From a virus: DNA of 34,647 bases. The stretch covers positions 1 through 34,647 of the IMG/VR virus record IMGVR_UViG_3300030329_004577. One strand, 5' to 3'. Each line of letters starts with the position of its first letter. Within the stretch, counting starts at the first letter, position 1. Below the pieces are notes generated by a model. The model saw only the letters and a program-made list of their open reading frames with translations. It ran no database searches and was not told where the DNA came from. Both the position numbers and the translations under genes were made by a program. This document shows positions 6,277 through 27,250 of the stretch, in pieces.

Positions 6277-7593
6277 TTAACTAGCGGCACACTTTAGAAT
6301 CTTGAAAGAATCTGTAAGTGCTATTTGTCCATCTCCTCTGCGAGTGGCAAAGAATCCGACCTGATCGTTGCCCATGTAGAGCGAATCATTTCTGCGGATC
6401 GTCATGCCAATTCTGTCGAAAATGTAGTAGTTCCTGAAATCTCCAAGAACTCCAATTTCATTGTTCGCAGATAGTGCAGTCGCAAGACCGTTGTTACTTG
6501 TGTCATCTGCATTAACTACAGCCTTTCCAAGCAAGTTTGTGTCTGGACTAGCTGTTAAGCTGTCAATGCCTGTAACTCCTGCCGCCGTTGACTGTATGGA
6601 ATTAACAACTTTGGTAATCAATGAAGGCATAACCCATGTGGCGTTCTGCCTGAATTGAGAATTAAGTGTGTAGAAAATTCCAAGCAAATCAGCAGTTGTC
6701 AAAGCACCTGTTGCCGCCATTACATAGTCAGCAACGCTAGAGCCTAAAATACCGTCATACTGAGCGGAATCATTACCGTTCAATATTCCTGCATCTTCAA
6801 ATCTTCCTGCGGCCTCGGTGAATAACTGGCTAAGTAGGGCGGGCAAGTTGACTGCCGAGTCATCAAGCAATTCCCTGGTTACCTTGACCAAACCGCCAGA
6901 CTTCTCTATTGAGAAAGCCACTTGACCGACCGTTGGGGTCTGGTCGCTAAATGCCGCCTCTTCAGCTATTGCCGCCCAGGATGCACTCGCCAGGGTTGGA
7001 ACGTATCCATCCTTGCTTGCAACCCTTATAACGGTACTGAGTGGCCTTAATTGTGACCCTGGTACTCCTGGGTCATGTATAACCTGATTTATAAACTCTT
7101 CAGGCACGAAATATCCACCTTCTGCATCTGTATCTTCCTGCATGGCTTTTACTTCGTCTGGAGTTGCGGTCTTCCAGAAAACATCTTCAGATGGGCTTTG
7201 CATCCACTTGACGAATGTATCAGTCTGGACTCTAGCCTCTTCTTTTAGATTGTCTCCCATCTGCTCCTGAACCCACATTGGTTGAGCGTGGGCGGGTAGA
7301 CCTTTCACCCAGGTTGCTGGCTTGTAATTAGCCTTCGTTTTGGCTGTTGTGTCATTTGGGTCATATTTTGCAACATCTGTGGACGCAACCGGAATCTCAT
7401 TAACAGGTCGATTTAATTCTCCGGTTAATGCCTTGAGTTTCGATTGTGCCGCTTCCAGTTCGTCAGCTTTCGCTATCTTTTCGGAAAAATCTGCCATCAG
7501 TTTATTTCCCTGGTCAACTTCACCTTTTTCAAGGGCTTCTTTTGCCAGGCTTAATAATCCGTTGGCACTCTCCCGCAATTCTTTTATCTCCAT
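6277..7593 (-). CDS. HK97-type major capsid protein (438 aa)
   Basis: Residues 1-60 are a charged coiled coil (MEIKELRESANGLLSLAKEA ...) like the HK97 delta/scaffold domain that is removed by the prohead protease. The body has the HK97 fold signatures: GGYFVPEEFINQVI, LRPLSTVIRVASKDGYVPTL, F-S-I-E-K-S-G-G-L-V-K-V-T-R-E-L-L-D-D, G-R-F-E-D-A-G-I-L-N-G-N, and ends with DRIGMTIRRNDSLYMGNDQV. An AGGAG site precedes the ATG. It follows portal and protease in the standard order. The main shell subunit. Confidence 0.95.
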   Translation of the reverse strand: MEIKELRESANGLLSLAKEALEKGEVDQGNKLMADFSEKIAKADELEAAQSKLKALTGELNRPVNEIPVASTDVAKYDPNDTTAKTKANYKPATWVKGLPAHAQPMWVQEQMGDNLKEEARVQTDTFVKWMQSPSEDVFWKTATPDEVKAMQEDTDAEGGYFVPEEFINQVIHDPGVPGSQLRPLSTVIRVASKDGYVPTLASASWAAIAEEAAFSDQTPTVGQVAFSIEKSGGLVKVTRELLDDSAVNLPALLSQLFTEAAGRFEDAGILNGNDSAQYDGILGSSVADYVMAATGALTTADLLGIFYTLNSQFRQNATWVMPSLITKVVNSIQSTAAGVTGIDSLTASPDTNLLGKAVVNADDTSNNGLATALSANNEIGVLGDFRNYYIFDRIGMTIRRNDSLYMGNDQVGFFATRRGDGQIALTDSFKILKCAAS

Positions 7594-8278: not shown

Positions 8279-10342
8279 TTACGCCTCTTGCATTTCTGGT
8301 TTGTAATTTCTGTCCATTGGAGTCCATGAGAGGGTTCCGTTTGGATGGTCGGAGATATTTATTGCGTCTTCAGCGTGATAAATCTGGTTATGCCTTTCAA
8401 TACAGGTGCGACCATATGGATCACCAGGGTCAACATATGTGTCCCCTTCATCTCCGTCTGGGTCGGTAGCCCTTAACCAGTCGAAACCCTGTTGTCTGAA
8501 AAAACCAACAGAGGTCATGTTTTGCGACCTCATAATTTCTGTGCGGGCGATTAATCTTGCCCTGACTTTGGTTTCACCTAATTTGGTTCTCAGTCCAACA
8601 AAATTGTCAGCAGGAACGCCCCTGGCTAACATCTCTACTGAGTAACCTCGGTTTATAGCCGTCTCAACGGCGTTTTGTACGACTTTTCTGGTGGTTCTGT
8701 GGATTATGGTTGCCCTGGGGTTTGCCTGGGTAACAACTGACTGAACTGCGGATGCCTGTTCTGACCATTCCAGTTCCCCCGCAACACCTGATGCGTTTAT
8801 GTGACCGAATGTTCTGCGGGTAACATTAATGAAGGCGTTATGTAATATATTGGAGAGTTCCCCTAATTCCGCATCTGGTACGAGCTGTGACCATTCAAAG
8901 GGAAAGTCCTTTGTCTCGAGTTCGATATCCCTCTCCATGTACCGCCCCAGGTAGCCGTCGACCTTGTTTTTTATTCTGGTCAGATATTGGTTGAGTCTTT
9001 TATCTAAATCCTCAACTAAAACTTCTCTATCCTGTAAAAGAACCTGTCTCAATTTGACTGCCCTGGGTGCAACTGGATCGAGTCGTTTTAATTCACCAAT
9101 TGCTCCACCCTGTTCAATCGCCATCGGCATATTATTTTCTAAGGCATTACCCTCAATAATGTTGATAGGGATTCGTCTGACCTCACCCTCTGTAATAGAG
9201 TCCTGCCCAACCATTTCCCTTGCTTCATTAAGAGTGATAATGCCGGAAGTAAATAATGTCGTTGCCCTGGTTGTTACCGAATCTTTATCTTCCAGAAAAG
9301 CCCTCATTTGGGAGAAATCAACCATGATTTGACCGTCATTGGGAAAGTCGGAATAAAAACAATAATTAAAGAACCGGACAAACCGTTCTATTAATGGTTC
9401 TAATGTTTCGGAATGGAAAGACAGCCTGGCCTCTTTATAGTTGCTGAATGTGGAACGTTGCAATCCCACATTAGCCCCTACCAGGATTGCGGGAACACCT
9501 AACACCGCACATATTCTGGACTCAGTTAAATTGTGCAGTTCTGTTAGTGCCATATCAGACGGAGCTGAGGCCATCTGTTGAAATTCGGCATCATCATCAA
9601 TGACTGCCACCTGGTGCATATTTTGCGAACCCCCAAATGTGGAACGCCACCTTGAGCGGATTCTTGTTGCTTCTTCCTGGGACGTTAATCTCCGTTTGAT
9701 TTTTAACAAGCCGGAAGGAACACCCGCATTTGAAAAATACGTTTTGGCAAAATCAGTCATCAACATATCGAGATTAATATTCTTTGCCAGAACGTGGAGC
9801 GGGCTTAATCCATAAACGTCACCGGATGGATTAGGAAGTGCCATGTGAGCAACATCTTCATAAGGTAATTCATATTCCTTGCCGTCTATCTCATATGCAT
9901 AGGAATTGCGACCTGTTTCGTTGGGTTTGATCGAAACCCTATCCGGTCTGAGTAACCATAACGCCCCGACCTGGTTGCCCCTGTTTCTTTCCTTATATAC
10001 ATAAACATTTCCGGCGACTTGAAGATAAGTGACAGCTCTTTCGATCCATGTATACCAGTCATGTTCGGGGTTGGGATTTTTGACCAGTTTAGCCAGAGGA
10101 GAATTATCAATTTCAGTAATTCCGGAGTCATCTTTACGACCAACAAACCACCTCGCACCGGAAACTCCTGTCGACAGCTCCCGAATACAAGCGTGAACTA
10201 TCTCTGACCTACCGTAGCCCTGGGAAGCAAAGTTTTCATAATTATCTGTCGGATAAACGACATTCGTTAAATCCGACACGACAGGGACGGTTGATGAAAT
10301 ATCTGTTTCTATTTGTTTGGTAAACAGGTTCCAAAATGCCAA
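8279..10342 (-). CDS. Portal protein fused to a MuF-like minor head domain (687 aa)
   Basis: Residues 1-400 are an HK97-type portal (NPNPEHDWYTWIERAVTYLQ, GNVYVYKERNRGNQVGALWL, G-L-S-P-L-H, VPAILVGANVG). Residues about 420-687 are a MuF/SPP1 gp7-like minor head domain, with ARTEIMRSQNMTSVGFFRQQ, the turn G-F-D-W-L-R-A-T-D, a single C-I-E-R-H and the end H-P-N-G-T-L-S-W-T-P. These are often two neighbouring genes, but here they are one polypeptide. The portal ring is the DNA entry gate, and MuF proteins are injected or connect the head. It starts at an ATG in a 260-bp spacer after the rightward cassette. Confidence 0.9.
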   Translation of the reverse strand: MAFWNLFTKQIETDISSTVPVVSDLTNVVYPTDNYENFASQGYGRSEIVHACIRELSTGVSGARWFVGRKDDSGITEIDNSPLAKLVKNPNPEHDWYTWIERAVTYLQVAGNVYVYKERNRGNQVGALWLLRPDRVSIKPNETGRNSYAYEIDGKEYELPYEDVAHMALPNPSGDVYGLSPLHVLAKNINLDMLMTDFAKTYFSNAGVPSGLLKIKRRLTSQEEATRIRSRWRSTFGGSQNMHQVAVIDDDAEFQQMASAPSDMALTELHNLTESRICAVLGVPAILVGANVGLQRSTFSNYKEARLSFHSETLEPLIERFVRFFNYCFYSDFPNDGQIMVDFSQMRAFLEDKDSVTTRATTLFTSGIITLNEAREMVGQDSITEGEVRRIPINIIEGNALENNMPMAIEQGGAIGELKRLDPVAPRAVKLRQVLLQDREVLVEDLDKRLNQYLTRIKNKVDGYLGRYMERDIELETKDFPFEWSQLVPDAELGELSNILHNAFINVTRRTFGHINASGVAGELEWSEQASAVQSVVTQANPRATIIHRTTRKVVQNAVETAINRGYSVEMLARGVPADNFVGLRTKLGETKVRARLIARTEIMRSQNMTSVGFFRQQGFDWLRATDPDGDEGDTYVDPGDPYGRTCIERHNQIYHAEDAINISDHPNGTLSWTPMDRNYKPEMQEA

Positions 10343-18023: not shown

Positions 18024-19271
18024 TCAGTTCTCAATTTTCTTGTCCAATTGAGATTGGTATTTTTCAACAGCTTCCCGCACCATTGTTTCGAATTTCTCAA
18101 CCGCTTTTTCGTCCTGTTGCGGTATCCGGTGCATGTATCCCATGCTCGTCTTGATATCCCCATGCCCGAGCCTGGCCTGGACGATTTTCGGGTTTCCTGT
18201 TTGTGCCATGATATGAGTGGCGTGTGTATGCCTTAAATCATGCGGTCTGAATAAACCTTCTAACTTACTGCCTTTCAAACGTCTACGCCATTCATCTCCC
18301 CAGGAATCAGGATTGATAAACCCACCGGAGTGAATCATGTTGCAATCATTGCAATGGGAGTTTGTGTATGCAATGTCCCTGGTGAATAACAGGTCGTCTA
18401 ATTGAAATGGTGATAATCCCAATTCCTGACGTTCTTTATTTCTTTGATCTAAATAAGCCCTTATCATCAGAGCTGTATTAACTCCAATAGATTGAGTTCT
18501 TAATCCTTGTCCTTTATTTTTATTCTTTTTGACGTTCTGATGATAATAAACGCCGTCTACATAAGTTAATTTCTTAATTATTGTTACTGTTAAAAGATCA
18601 AGGTTTATGTCTCTGATTCTTAATCCCAGAATCTCACTTCGCCTGGCACCGATATTTAAAGCAAAGAAATATGAATGAAACCATTTATTGCCTTGCAGTA
18701 AATCCAACATCAATGCAATTTCTGATTCTGACAGATATCTTTCCGTCTGGTCTGGTGCTTCCGGTTTTTCTACTCCGTCCATCGGATTGTATTTCAACGG
18801 AATTGTTTTTCGGCCTTTCGCCCAGTTAAACATCGCCCTCGTTACATCATAAGTTTTTATTGCTGATGCTGTTGTATGTTTTGATTTCTTTCCGTCAAAA
18901 CGATTAGCAAGGGTTCTTTCCAACATGTTTTCAATATGATTTTCATTTACTTTTAAGATATCCAGATTCCCCAAAACCGGAAGAACGTGATCTTTTAATG
19001 TCTGCCTGTAGACTCTGACGGTTGTGGGCTGTTTTTTTGAGAATGTTTTTTTGTCCCACTCTTTTGCCAGGTCTAGAACGGTCATCTTTTTACCCAGGAA
19101 AATTTCACCGTCTTCCATTTGAGCCTGTATACGCCGCCACCTCTTTAATGCCTGGGCTTTTGTTTCACCTATTGCTCCGCCGAATTTTTTTCTTTTATAT
19201 TTACCGCTAACAGGGTCTTTATATGAATGAAGTGTGTACCATTTACTGCCTCTTTTCTGTATTGATGCCAT
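18024..19271 (-). CDS. int: Tyrosine-recombinase integrase (415 aa)
   Basis: The AP2-like arm-binding domain at 1-60 (GSKWYTLHSYKDPVSGKYKR) is followed by a SAM-like core-binding domain at 62-165 and the catalytic domain. R210 (G-A-R-R-S-E), H344 and R347 (H-D-L-R-H), H370 (L-G-H-G) and nucleophile Y379 (M-G-Y-M) complete the active site. An insert with C307 and C310 (C-N-D-C) could bind zinc. The start follows the repressor stop by one base, with AAGGAGAT upstream, so the two genes share a transcript. The gene ends next to attP. Confidence 0.96.
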   Translation of the reverse strand: MASIQKRGSKWYTLHSYKDPVSGKYKRKKFGGAIGETKAQALKRWRRIQAQMEDGEIFLGKKMTVLDLAKEWDKKTFSKKQPTTVRVYRQTLKDHVLPVLGNLDILKVNENHIENMLERTLANRFDGKKSKHTTASAIKTYDVTRAMFNWAKGRKTIPLKYNPMDGVEKPEAPDQTERYLSESEIALMLDLLQGNKWFHSYFFALNIGARRSEILGLRIRDINLDLLTVTIIKKLTYVDGVYYHQNVKKNKNKGQGLRTQSIGVNTALMIRAYLDQRNKERQELGLSPFQLDDLLFTRDIAYTNSHCNDCNMIHSGGFINPDSWGDEWRRRLKGSKLEGLFRPHDLRHTHATHIMAQTGNPKIVQARLGHGDIKTSMGYMHRIPQQDEKAVEKFETMVREAVEKYQSQLDKKIEN

Positions 19272-22077: not shown

Positions 22078-22928
22078 TGTCTGGCTCTTATTTAGATAAA
22101 GCCGTTTCAATGTTTATCAACAACGATATTCCTCTGGACGAAAAATGTGTCTTGATGTTTATGTGTGCCAAAACAACTGACGGCAACCTCTCTATCTCCA
22201 ACAGGGAATTATTAGGTCTAACTCGTTTTACACCAGAGCGATTAAAAAAGACCATTAATTCCCTGGTGCAACGTGGTTGGCTCGTATTGCTCAGAAGAGG
22301 CGGGGGTCAAATTGTGACTCAATATGAAATTACATTAGAGGGGGGTCTAAATCCAGAGGGGGTCAAATCTAGGGGGGGTGAAAAACAGGGGGGGTCAAAT
22401 CCAGAGGGGGGTCGAAATATACCCCCTCTGAAATCAAACACTATAGTAACAAACAACCCACCTATAGAACCCTCAACTTCCCCTTCTTATATAAATATAG
22501 ATATTAATAAAGATATTAATAATACAGGGGAACCGAAACACAAATATTCTTCTGTTATTGAGATTCTCAGGGAAATAAAAGATTACAACCTTAACCCTGG
22601 AAAAGAACACAACCTGATGAACAGGTTACTCAAAATGAATGTATCGGTAGAACGTGCCGAAAGATGTGCCTCTGAAATTTATACCAACCTATTTTCCCAC
22701 CACTCTAAAGACGGTTCCATTCAATGGTGTTACCGCCAATCTGTAAGCGGTAATAAGAAGGGTTATCACCAGAATTTAGACGGTTGTTATTGGAACTGGT
22801 TGTTGAGGGATATCAAACAAAACAGAAACACCAGAAGAAATAAAACAAATGTCACATCGCCTACTCAATCAACCTGGTCAGATATTGCCAGTAAAAGGAA
22901 CGCAATAACCAATGCTGAAGACGCTTGA
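22077..22928 (+). CDS. Replication initiator, winged-helix (O-like, 283 aa)
   Basis: Residues 1-85 form a winged helix (LSISNRELLGLTRFTPERLK, then T-I-N-S-L-V-Q-R-G-W-L-V-L-L-R-R) typical of phage initiators of the lambda O/DnaD class. The middle (95-160) is a low-complexity linker encoded by the iteron region and AT-rich repeat described separately. The C-terminal part (160-283) has a conserved-looking domain (IEILREIKDYNLNPGKEHNL ... WCYRQSV ... GCYWNWLLRDIK). Followed with a 17-nt overlap by the DnaC-like loader, as O by P in lambda. It would bind the iterons in its own gene and recruit the loader. Confidence 0.8.
   Translation: MSGSYLDKAVSMFINNDIPLDEKCVLMFMCAKTTDGNLSISNRELLGLTRFTPERLKKTINSLVQRGWLVLLRRGGGQIVTQYEITLEGGLNPEGVKSRGGEKQGGSNPEGGRNIPPLKSNTIVTNNPPIEPSTSPSYINIDINKDINNTGEPKHKYSSVIEILREIKDYNLNPGKEHNLMNRLLKMNVSVERAERCASEIYTNLFSHHSKDGSIQWCYRQSVSGNKKGYHQNLDGCYWNWLLRDIKQNRNTRRNKTNVTSPTQSTWSDIASKRNAITNAEDA
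22338..22421 (+). repeat. ori: Five G-rich iterons in the initiator gene (putative origin)
   Basis: Five tandem units of 16-18 bases, each a run of 5-7 G with TCAAATCCA-like remainder: 22338-22355, 22356-22371, 22372-22387, 22388-22403 and 22404-22421. The last runs into an inverted CCCCCTCT so that AGAGGGGG and CCCCCTCT can pair. In protein they read as G-G-x-N-P-E-G repeats, so selection may be on DNA. Lambda ori also lies as iterons inside the initiator gene. Confidence 0.75.
22487..22524 (+). repeat. AT-rich unwinding element with a 12-bp tandem repeat
   Basis: About 38 bases almost without G or C contain AGATATTAATAA twice in direct tandem (22499-22510 and 22511-22522). It lies 66 bp after the iterons, in the same order as in lambda ori (iterons, then AT-rich strand-opening region). 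Confidence 0.65.
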
Positions 22929-23730
22929 AGATATAAAAGAGCGAACATTAAAAACCACTTCTTTTCCTAGCTCCATTGCTCAATGTGGATTAAACAAAAA
23001 AACCGGATTAATTGACTATAACAAGGGATGCGGTCTTTTTGATGGGAAAGACGAATTGCTTCATTCAATAATGGAGATGAGCCGACCTCATGTCCCTGTA
23101 GAAATGGCAATTTGTAGTTGTGCCAGTTCTAGAGAGGAATTAGCCAGGCAACGTCACCAACAACGACTCGCAGATGCAAGGCTACCGCACCATACCTCAG
23201 TCCACAGAACGTTCGATAATTTTAAACCAATGGAAGGCACAGAAACCGCTCTTAAAGCCGCTCTTGATTTCACCCAGGGTATTGGTTCAAACATTTTGGT
23301 TCTTGCGGGCGGTGTTGGTTGTGGAAAAAGCCACCTGTTAGAAGCAATAGGACGAGAGCTGTTGAACCAGGGCAAAACTGTACGTTATCGCCTGGTAGCC
23401 GATTATGTGGACGATTTAAGGCAAGCAGAATCTACCAATACGAAATTCGACCTGATGGATCGGATTTATATAACTAACACAATGATTCTGGACGACCTGG
23501 GAGTTGAGCGGGTTAACGAATACGCCCTTGAGGAAATCACCAAATTAATCGAACACCGATTAATGGAAAGTGACCGGAACTGTCGGCTCGTAATCGCCAC
23601 GAATCTGAATTATCAGGATATGACCAGACAGTTCGACCAACGTATTGCGGACAGGTTGTGGGCTACATCCCTGGACGAAGTTACAACCATTCCAATGACC
23701 GCAACATCTTACAGACAGCCCATCGGATAA
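22912..23730 (+). CDS. DnaC-type helicase loader, AAA+ (272 aa)
   Basis: Walker A A-G-G-V-G-C-G-K-S-H lies at 132-141 and Walker B M-I-L-D-D-L-G at 191-197. Sensor-like V-I-A-T-N-L lies near 226-231 and an arginine-rich end follows. The N-terminal 100 residues include Cys 25, 40, 68 and 70, possibly a zinc element. DnaC/DnaI-like proteins load the host DnaB helicase at the phage origin. The gene starts inside the end of the initiator gene. No phage polymerase is present, so replication would depend on the host. Confidence 0.9.
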   Translation: MLKTLEDIKERTLKTTSFPSSIAQCGLNKKTGLIDYNKGCGLFDGKDELLHSIMEMSRPHVPVEMAICSCASSREELARQRHQQRLADARLPHHTSVHRTFDNFKPMEGTETALKAALDFTQGIGSNILVLAGGVGCGKSHLLEAIGRELLNQGKTVRYRLVADYVDDLRQAESTNTKFDLMDRIYITNTMILDDLGVERVNEYALEEITKLIEHRLMESDRNCRLVIATNLNYQDMTRQFDQRIADRLWATSLDEVTTIPMTATSYRQPIG

Positions 23731-25935: not shown

Positions 25936-26416
25936 TTGTATCTACTGCAAAAACCCAATTTCCAAAAATTTAATAGCCTGTCGGGAGTGTATCCAACAAA
26001 ATGGAAATCCATGTTGGAAATGTGGCATAACGGTTGGAGTCTGGCAATCTACTCATGATCCTAGTGTGTCTGAGGGAGCTTACATATGCAATTTCTGTAC
26101 TAGCAAAATTGCCCAGGAACAAAAAGAAGCTGAGTTCCAAAAATTCCAAACCGATTGGCGGGAGCGGAAAGATTTAAAGAAAACATATACTGATGAGGAA
26201 CTGGACAAAGCCGTTGAATATGACCTTTATGATCTCTTCAATGACTTTGTATCTCCCAACATTTACAAAGCATTAGAAGACCCAGATATGCAGAAAAGAT
26301 TCACCGAGGTACGAAACACTATTGTCGATTTAATCGGTGAATATCGGCAAGAAATTAAATATCAAGAATATTTAGATATGCCCAATTTGTGCATATTCGA
26401 TCCAAGCCTGGATTAA
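25928..26416 (+). CDS. Protein with N-terminal zinc fingers (162 aa)
   Basis: Four C-x2-C pairs occur in the first 56 residues (C-I-Y-C, C-R-E-C, C-W-K-C, C-N-F-C), a treble-clef-like double zinc site. Residues 60-162 are acidic and helical (DELDKAVEYDLYDLFNDFVS). No family recognised; a DNA- or RNA-binding adaptor is possible. Confidence 0.65.
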   Translation: MNNCIYCKNPISKNLIACRECIQQNGNPCWKCGITVGVWQSTHDPSVSEGAYICNFCTSKIAQEQKEAEFQKFQTDWRERKDLKKTYTDEELDKAVEYDLYDLFNDFVSPNIYKALEDPDMQKRFTEVRNTIVDLIGEYRQEIKYQEYLDMPNLCIFDPSLD

Positions 26417-26425
26417 AAGGAAGAT

Positions 26426-27250
26426 ATGAAAAATGTTGTTATACATCCCGCCCTCGATACTTTATCCCTATATAGCGGAATCGGAGGACTTGAACTCGGT
26501 CTTGCACAAGCTCTCCGAATTAACGTCCGTGCTTACATTGAGAGGGAGTTTTCGTGCGTCCGGATACTGGCACAACGATCTGAAGAAAACCGGCTCGATA
26601 AGGGTCTTATATACAGCGATGTCGAATCCTTCCCTGTTGAAAGATACAGAGACAAAATTTCTGTCATCATTGGGGGATTCCCATGCCAACCCTGGTCTCA
26701 GGCAAACCACACAAAAAACAAAGGCGAAACCGACAGCAGAAATGGTTGGCCTCAAGTCATCAGATTCATTCGCACAATTCGACCCGATCTCGTATTCCTG
26801 GAAAACGTTCCAAATATCCTTAATCACGAATACTTTGGAACAATACTCGGAGACTTATCCCAGGCAGGGTTCAATGCAGAATGGGGTTGTTTCCAGGGTT
26901 TGGACGTTGGAATCCCACAACACAGAGAACGGCTCTTTATACTGGGCTACGCCAACGACAAGAGACTGGAAGGATGGGGTAAGTTCAGATTCGGTTCCGG
27001 AGAACGCTCTACTGGGCAGACAAGCCCCGAACTGGGTGATCAGAAATCTGTCCCGCCTACCAGAGACAACATCGAAGGATGGACACAAGTGTGGACAGAA
27101 ATGCCTGATCTTAAACCCGCTATTTGCAAACTGGCTACAGGGGTTCCCGATAGGATGGGGCAATTACAGATGTTCGGAAACGCAGTAATCCCCGCAGTCG
27201 CAACATTCGCCTTTAATCAGTTAGCCGACCGGATAATGGACAAAAAATAA
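26426..27250 (+). CDS. C5-cytosine DNA methyltransferase (274 aa)
   Basis: All key motifs are present in order: I (L-Y-S-G-I-G-G-L-E at 15-23), IV (G-G-F-P-C-Q-P-W with catalytic C87), VI (E-N-V at 126-128), VIII (Q-H-R-E-R-L-F at 165-171) and X (F-G-N-A-V-I-P-A-V-A near 248). The target-recognition region between VIII and IX is short (about 70 residues). It methylates cytosine in a sequence I cannot predict; no nuclease partner is adjacent, so it is an orphan, likely for protection. AAGGAAG lies before the ATG. Confidence 0.93.
   Translation: MKNVVIHPALDTLSLYSGIGGLELGLAQALRINVRAYIEREFSCVRILAQRSEENRLDKGLIYSDVESFPVERYRDKISVIIGGFPCQPWSQANHTKNKGETDSRNGWPQVIRFIRTIRPDLVFLENVPNILNHEYFGTILGDLSQAGFNAEWGCFQGLDVGIPQHRERLFILGYANDKRLEGWGKFRFGSGERSTGQTSPELGDQKSVPPTRDNIEGWTQVWTEMPDLKPAICKLATGVPDRMGQLQMFGNAVIPAVATFAFNQLADRIMDKK
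26433..27188 (+). CDS. Long overlapping frame inside the methyltransferase (251 codons, +1 frame)
   Basis: Open for 251 codons in another frame over almost the whole methyltransferase. The latter half reads like a known phage/metagenome protein family: Q-F-D-P-I-S-Y-S-W-K-T, S-E-T-Y-P-R-Q-G-S-M-Q-N-G, W-A-T-P-T-T-R-D-W-K-D-G and L-N-P-L-F-A-N-W-L-Q-G-F-P-I-G-W. The GGAAG site of the main gene is nine bases before this ATG, so either could start there; M104 at 26742 is another possible start. It may be a true overprinted gene or a frame shadow kept open by motif codons. I do not know its function. Confidence 0.45.
   Translation: MLLYIPPSILYPYIAESEDLNSVLHKLSELTSVLTLRGSFRASGYWHNDLKKTGSIRVLYTAMSNPSLLKDTETKFLSSLGDSHANPGLRQTTQKTKAKPTAEMVGLKSSDSFAQFDPISYSWKTFQISLITNTLEQYSETYPRQGSMQNGVVSRVWTLESHNTENGSLYWATPTTRDWKDGVSSDSVPENALLGRQAPNWVIRNLSRLPETTSKDGHKCGQKCLILNPLFANWLQGFPIGWGNYRCSETQ

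Follow-up and report, generated by a model that had tools for sequence, protein, structure and literature searches.

The stretch of DNA analysed here (the window) comprises 34,647 nucleotides of the virus record IMGVR_UViG_3300030329_004577 and has the look of a temperate tailed phage, with genes for a tape measure protein (601-2553), a major head protein (6277-7593), a portal (8279-10342), an integrase (18024-19271), and a DnaC-like loader (22912-23730). Two open reading frames are superimposed at the locus described in this work. The first, alpha, encodes 274 amino acids, while the second, beta, occupies the +1 frame relative to alpha and, when coordinates are compared, lies wholly inside it (Table 1). 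Both were present as the first-pass annotation of this DNA had claimed, and every peptide quoted there was found in the translated frames. Its base-for-base register was reproduced by printing the frames in parallel: main-frame GFNAEW stands on GSMQNG, HRERLF on TENGSLYW, and GVPDRMG on GFPIGWG.

The Shine-Dalgarno-like sequence AAAAGGAAG is located closely 5' of ATG 26426 and ATG 26433, in keeping with the earlier proposal of one ribosome site for both, and by their position these ATGs are candidate starts. The true start of beta is uncertain, as it may be ATG 26433 or lie further inside, for example at ATG 26619, and the beta start codon varies across relatives. Tandem ATGs close together also occur in the relatives L045, L091, L093, L103, and L121 (+4), L156 (+7), and L112 (+10).

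Table 1. Features of the locus with two superimposed reading frames (positions in the window).
Feature	Position	Strand	Basis
AAAAGGAAG, Shine-Dalgarno-like, 5' of both ATGs	26415..26423	+	Sequence
Alpha: probable large subunit of a C5-cytosine DNA methyltransferase, motifs I-VIII and X, without motif IX	26426..27250	+	274 aa; PF00145, phrog_363, AF2, HhaI fold
Beta: overprinted ORF in the +1 frame relative to alpha	26433..27188	+	251 codons counted from the first ATG; phrog_1008, shuffles, stop depletion
Alpha motif IV, GGFPCQPWS, with the catalytic Cys	26672..26698	+	P86, C87, Q88, and S91 invariant in the A3 alignment
Alpha motif VIII, QHRERLF	26918..26938	+	R167 and R169 invariant in the A3 alignment
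Beta putative target-recognition module (WATPTTRDWKDG...ENALLGRQ...), of the type of the commonest module, WPTPTTRDWKDGSRCDNVPENALLGRAAW	26943..27110	+	Module clusters; codon-position rates of relatives.322/.134/.122
Beta block assigned to motif IX, LNPLFANWLQGFPIGW	27111..27158	+	Second-frame identity 0.54 vs 0.20 expected, z 91; AF2 pLDDT 92; likeness to actinophages, L176, and DRM2
Alpha motif X, FGNAVIP, where the conserved beta frame ends	27170..27193	+	G251 and N252 nearly invariant in A3; model helix 256-272

Alpha matches PF00145 (1.4e-37) and phrog_363 (5.5e-49). Its AF2 model reaches a pLDDT of about 90 or higher across most of residues 10-180, falls below 50 at residues 184-230, and aligns with the HhaI fold over 211 residues (Z 22.2). 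Alpha is thus predicted to be a confidently folded catalytic domain in which residues 184-230, the expected place of the small domain, are disordered, although poor alignment in that region could be part of the cause. The invariant PCQ..S, E.V, and R.R, together with GN, the two family matches, and the HhaI fold, are those of a large subunit. Motif IX is missing from alpha; translated in the alpha frame, the motif IX block gives DLKPAICKLATGVPDRMG. The canonical single-chain layout, with motif IX between motifs VIII and X in one frame, is not found here, as this block belongs to the +1 frame.

No usable match to the whole of beta was found in Pfam, NCBIfam, or PDB sequences. The likeness to a widespread phage family, noticed from the sequence alone, was confirmed by matches of the second frame to phrog_1008 (E 1e-18) and phrog_27243 (E 1.3e-6). 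When modelled alone with AF2, beta gave a poor model (pLDDT 58), the confident parts of which are the helix of the motif IX block (pLDDT 92) and a short N-terminal stretch.

Selection on the second frame

Synonymous shuffles of the window gene, in which the alpha protein and codon usage were kept fixed, never reproduced the open +1 run of 252 codons (0 of 5000; mean longest run 83, maximum 213), and 8.8 stops were expected in this span. Across 110 dereplicated, diverse loci, +1 stops were compared with synonymous shuffles within each gene; methyltransferase residues 76-240 contained 11 such stops versus about 290 expected, with the +2 frame undepleted. Loci picked by the methyltransferase alone had 149 +1 stops versus 332 expected, and 839 +2 stops versus 826. 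Bacterial loci, which were picked by beta similarity, had 3 +1 stops versus 80 expected, whereas canonical methyltransferases from the same bacterial genomes (11 ORFs representing nine distinct genes, from five of these genomes) showed no effect (158 versus 160). Second-frame residue identity exceeded the shuffled expectation most at residues 226-240, where it was 0.54 versus 0.20, with the main frame at 0.44.

Strong purifying selection acts on the second frame, and selection has kept both frames conserved and open. Two readings had been offered in the first-pass annotation, and the stop depletion and the residue conservation beyond synonymous shuffles support the first of them, an overprinted gene conserved across phages. 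Relatives in which the second frame is lost and the alpha-type methyltransferase intact, set beforehand as the refuting observation, were not found among the loci examined. According to the other reading, the second frame is untranslated and its likeness to a phage family only echoes conserved methyltransferase codons, a view suggested by the position of some quoted motifs over conserved alpha motifs. We regard it as extremely improbable, since alpha-preserving synonymous shuffles yield neither the openness nor the residue identity, conservation of the top second-frame block surpasses that of the alpha frame overlying it (0.54 vs 0.44), TRD substitutions track the second frame, and canonical methyltransferases lack the +1 effect. 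While such a shadow is discarded as the cause of conservation by the shuffles and the canonical control, the part of that reading concerned with annotation stood: many database entries are indeed the second frame labelled 'DNA methyltransferase'. Most likely, these entries are real proteins, the partner frame of which is often missing.

Substitutions were examined in frame-blind blastn nucleotide pairs of 65-95% identity, with differences counted per main-frame codon position. The rates at positions 1/2/3 were.181/.143/.487 in the part 5' of motif IV. The recognition region had.322/.134/.122 and the motif IX zone.188/.114/.188; for the neighbouring helicase gene of Guernseyvirinae, which has no overlap, the values were.056/.026/.314. 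Because changes in the recognition region peak at main-frame position 1, which is the wobble position of the +1 frame, this region evolves as +1-frame coding sequence. From motif VIII to motif X, coding is primarily in the +1 frame, a claim which rests on the frame-blind pairs, as the module clusters were picked by beta similarity and are hence biased to beta conservation. The motif IX zone is under constraint in both frames.

Distribution and annotation of the paired frames

At the nucleotide level, a search with the locus DNA gave no match in phages. In tblastn searches, the second frame of the window retrieved 15 phage records and the family consensus 278; scans of IMG/VR added many more loci, and a bacterial genome scan with the consensus query yielded at least 73. 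A register census was performed with profile HMMs for each of the two frames. Among the phage matches listed, every second-frame match (265/265) overlapped a methyltransferase ORF, with the same relative register in 262; the other three were partial matches within the methyltransferase frame itself. The register was likewise the same in 75 of the 76 bacterial second-frame matches listed, and the single exception is likely an assembly frameshift. A free-standing second-frame gene did not occur among the matches listed (265 phage and 76 bacterial), with at most 80 loci taken per scan. Locus L344, considered as an alpha-beta fusion, was rejected, as it looks like a frameshifted version of L345. 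In a separate arrangement, L031 (2646-4648; also L032) carries methyltransferase genes in tandem, the first with a beta-frame match and the second with a +1 frame that is open along its length too.

The overprinted frame of most relatives matches phrog_1008, phrog_31772, phrog_27243, and phrog_26627, the last two without a function label, and PHROGs labels both frames 'DNA methyltransferase' (phrog_363 for alpha; phrog_1008 and phrog_31772 for beta). In the records of NTEC3 (L256, 2261-2923) and ST20 (L260, 1976-2629), only beta is annotated and the overlapping catalytic alpha ORF is omitted, while only alpha is annotated in those of Bas71 and Bas72. Both CDSs are listed in the records of K1G, K1ind3, and Arcticfreeze, and annotators working independently had called the two frames in K1G, K1ind3, and Paenibacillus phages. 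The name 'Mte8-like' in K1 phage records is, we assume, probably the UniProt name for the EcoHK31I methyltransferase. As pipelines usually keep one frame, half of the proposed enzyme is absent or mislabelled in many records.

Motif IX and the putative recognition modules

The most conserved beta block, LNPxFVEWLMGFPxGWT, occurs in the main frame immediately 5' of motif X in actinophage methyltransferases (571 records; L241, L049). In L176, the beta ORF itself has the TRD, LNPPWVEWLMGFPIGWTDL, and GNAVVPQ, in that order, and in a search of PDB sequences with a profile built from the in-frame block, plant DRM2 was matched at its motif IX-X segment (E 0.0054). Because actinophages and L176 carry the block in one frame with motif X, and because it matches the IX-X segment of DRM2, we identify LNPLFANWLQGFPIGW, by sequence likeness, as C5-methyltransferase motif IX. 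Beta is most likely the target recognition and motif IX subunit of an M.EcoHK31I-type enzyme, in which the WPTPTTRDWK modules would contact DNA. The window beta has a single PTPTTRDWK module, and not the several tandem recognition modules of a multispecific enzyme.

In a set of 47 dereplicated actinophage-type loci, motif IX has returned to the alpha frame. Here, the +1 constraint is gone at residues 76-135 (70 stops vs 72 expected) and kept at residues 136-180 (0 vs 30). Their +1 frame has GTG, ATG, or TTG about 40-50 codons 5' of the SETWPxSGM block, followed by module arrays, a pattern that supports independent initiation of the second frame. Array modules such as LLPTPTARDWK..., LLPTPRATDGTKGGPNQRGSSGDLMLPSAV, and KTPTAQLAVNGGSQHPDKRKAGGHGPTLADEVEH are common to different phages, which suggests that recognition modules in the second frame are exchangeable. 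In L176 (1907-2969) and L268 (967-2740), alpha stops within the recognition region, and a single frame, that of the beta ORF, contains the TRD, motif IX, and motif X, forming an AquI-like split.

It is an evenly balanced proposition that, in a very widespread class of C5 methyltransferases from phages and prophages, recognition resides in exchangeable modules of the overprinted frame, often in tandem, and that what looks like the recognition region of the annotated enzyme is for the most part a passive frame. If so, specificity would change by module swaps in a hidden frame. Specificity predictions that start from the annotated gene are based on the wrong sequence if recognition lies in the second frame.

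A two-subunit reading and its known relatives

We consider it very probable that the two subunits of one C5-cytosine DNA methyltransferase are encoded at this locus by superimposed genes. Most likely, alpha and beta would both be translated from one message, in the window perhaps starting at the close ATGs behind AAAAGGAAG, with an internal beta start also possible. Alpha would give the large catalytic domain, with AdoMet binding, the PCQ catalytic loop, ENV, motif VIII, and motif X, and beta would give the small domain absent from alpha, with the target-recognition module and motif IX. The two proteins would join as a heterodimer, representing the large and small domains of one C5 methyltransferase, and the assembled enzyme would methylate the phage genome, probably against host restriction.

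The same parts would come in canonical order if ribosomes left the alpha frame for the +1 frame behind motif VIII and returned ahead of motif X, making one chain of motifs I-VIII, recognition, IX, and X, and the lack of a uniform beta start among relatives would suit such programmed frameshifting. We find it unlikely, as each chain needs two shifts and the joint constraint extends far 5' of motif VIII (residues 76-165), where a single shift does not need it. Moreover, the GTG/ATG/TTG codons of actinophages lie at the onset of +1 constraint, and in L176, alpha ends inside the TRD and beta is an independent ORF. Less probable still is that the +1 frame encodes a separate protein with another job, e.g., anti-restriction or regulation, with a chance overlap and a motif IX-like helix. 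While the lack of a Pfam, NCBIfam, or PDB sequence match for whole beta would fit such a protein, beta has exactly what alpha is missing, sister enzymes have the same block in one frame with motif X, and beta was never seen without alpha among the phage and bacterial matches listed.

The two-subunit reading has precedents. In M.EcoHK31I (alpha/beta, YGGCCR), the beta gene is, we presume, nested in the alpha gene in another frame. The large subunit of this enzyme contains motifs I-VIII and X and the small subunit motif IX, while the predicted TRD was placed in the large subunit (PMC3404938). When compared by description, the window shares the distribution of motifs, with I-VIII and X on the large ORF and IX on the second; however, its recognition modules map to beta, a difference that counts against our reading, and no restriction gene was identified beside the window locus. 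M.AquI is also a two-polypeptide C5 methyltransferase whose small subunit provides the recognition part and motif IX, but its motif X is on that subunit too (PMC3404938), whereas that of the window (GNAVIP) is in the alpha frame; the M.AquI arrangement of motif X is seen in L176.

Passages of PMC5601072 describe C5 methyltransferase products that totally overlap in different frames in Streptococcus thermophilus 5093-group phages, S. pneumoniae phage MM1, and Tn5252. By this description, the total overlap resembles that of the window, but the reports, as relayed in these passages, do not place motif IX or the TRD in the second frame. The overlapping architecture is therefore already known, because of the M.EcoHK31I split, these reported overlaps, and the phage records listing both CDSs (K1G, K1ind3, and Arcticfreeze), and the window is an added member. 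Within an incomplete coverage of the literature, which leaves novelty unproven, we found no work on the breadth of this arrangement or on recognition modules in the overprinted frame. These aspects, together with the one-frame annotations, have apparently been less noticed so far. Outside small viruses, two conserved proteins seldom overlap completely, and the overlap described here occurs in hundreds of dsDNA phages as well as in bacterial chromosomes.

Multispecific phage C5 methyltransferases of the SPR/phi3T type carry tandem recognition modules. Many relatives of the window locus, especially in actinophages, have tandem modules as well; the window differs from this type in having one module, and the arrays of its relatives are in the overprinted frame. 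In the recognition regions of L261-L340, the +1 frame contains near-identical LLPTP... module arrays, the order of which differs between the actinophages sharing them.
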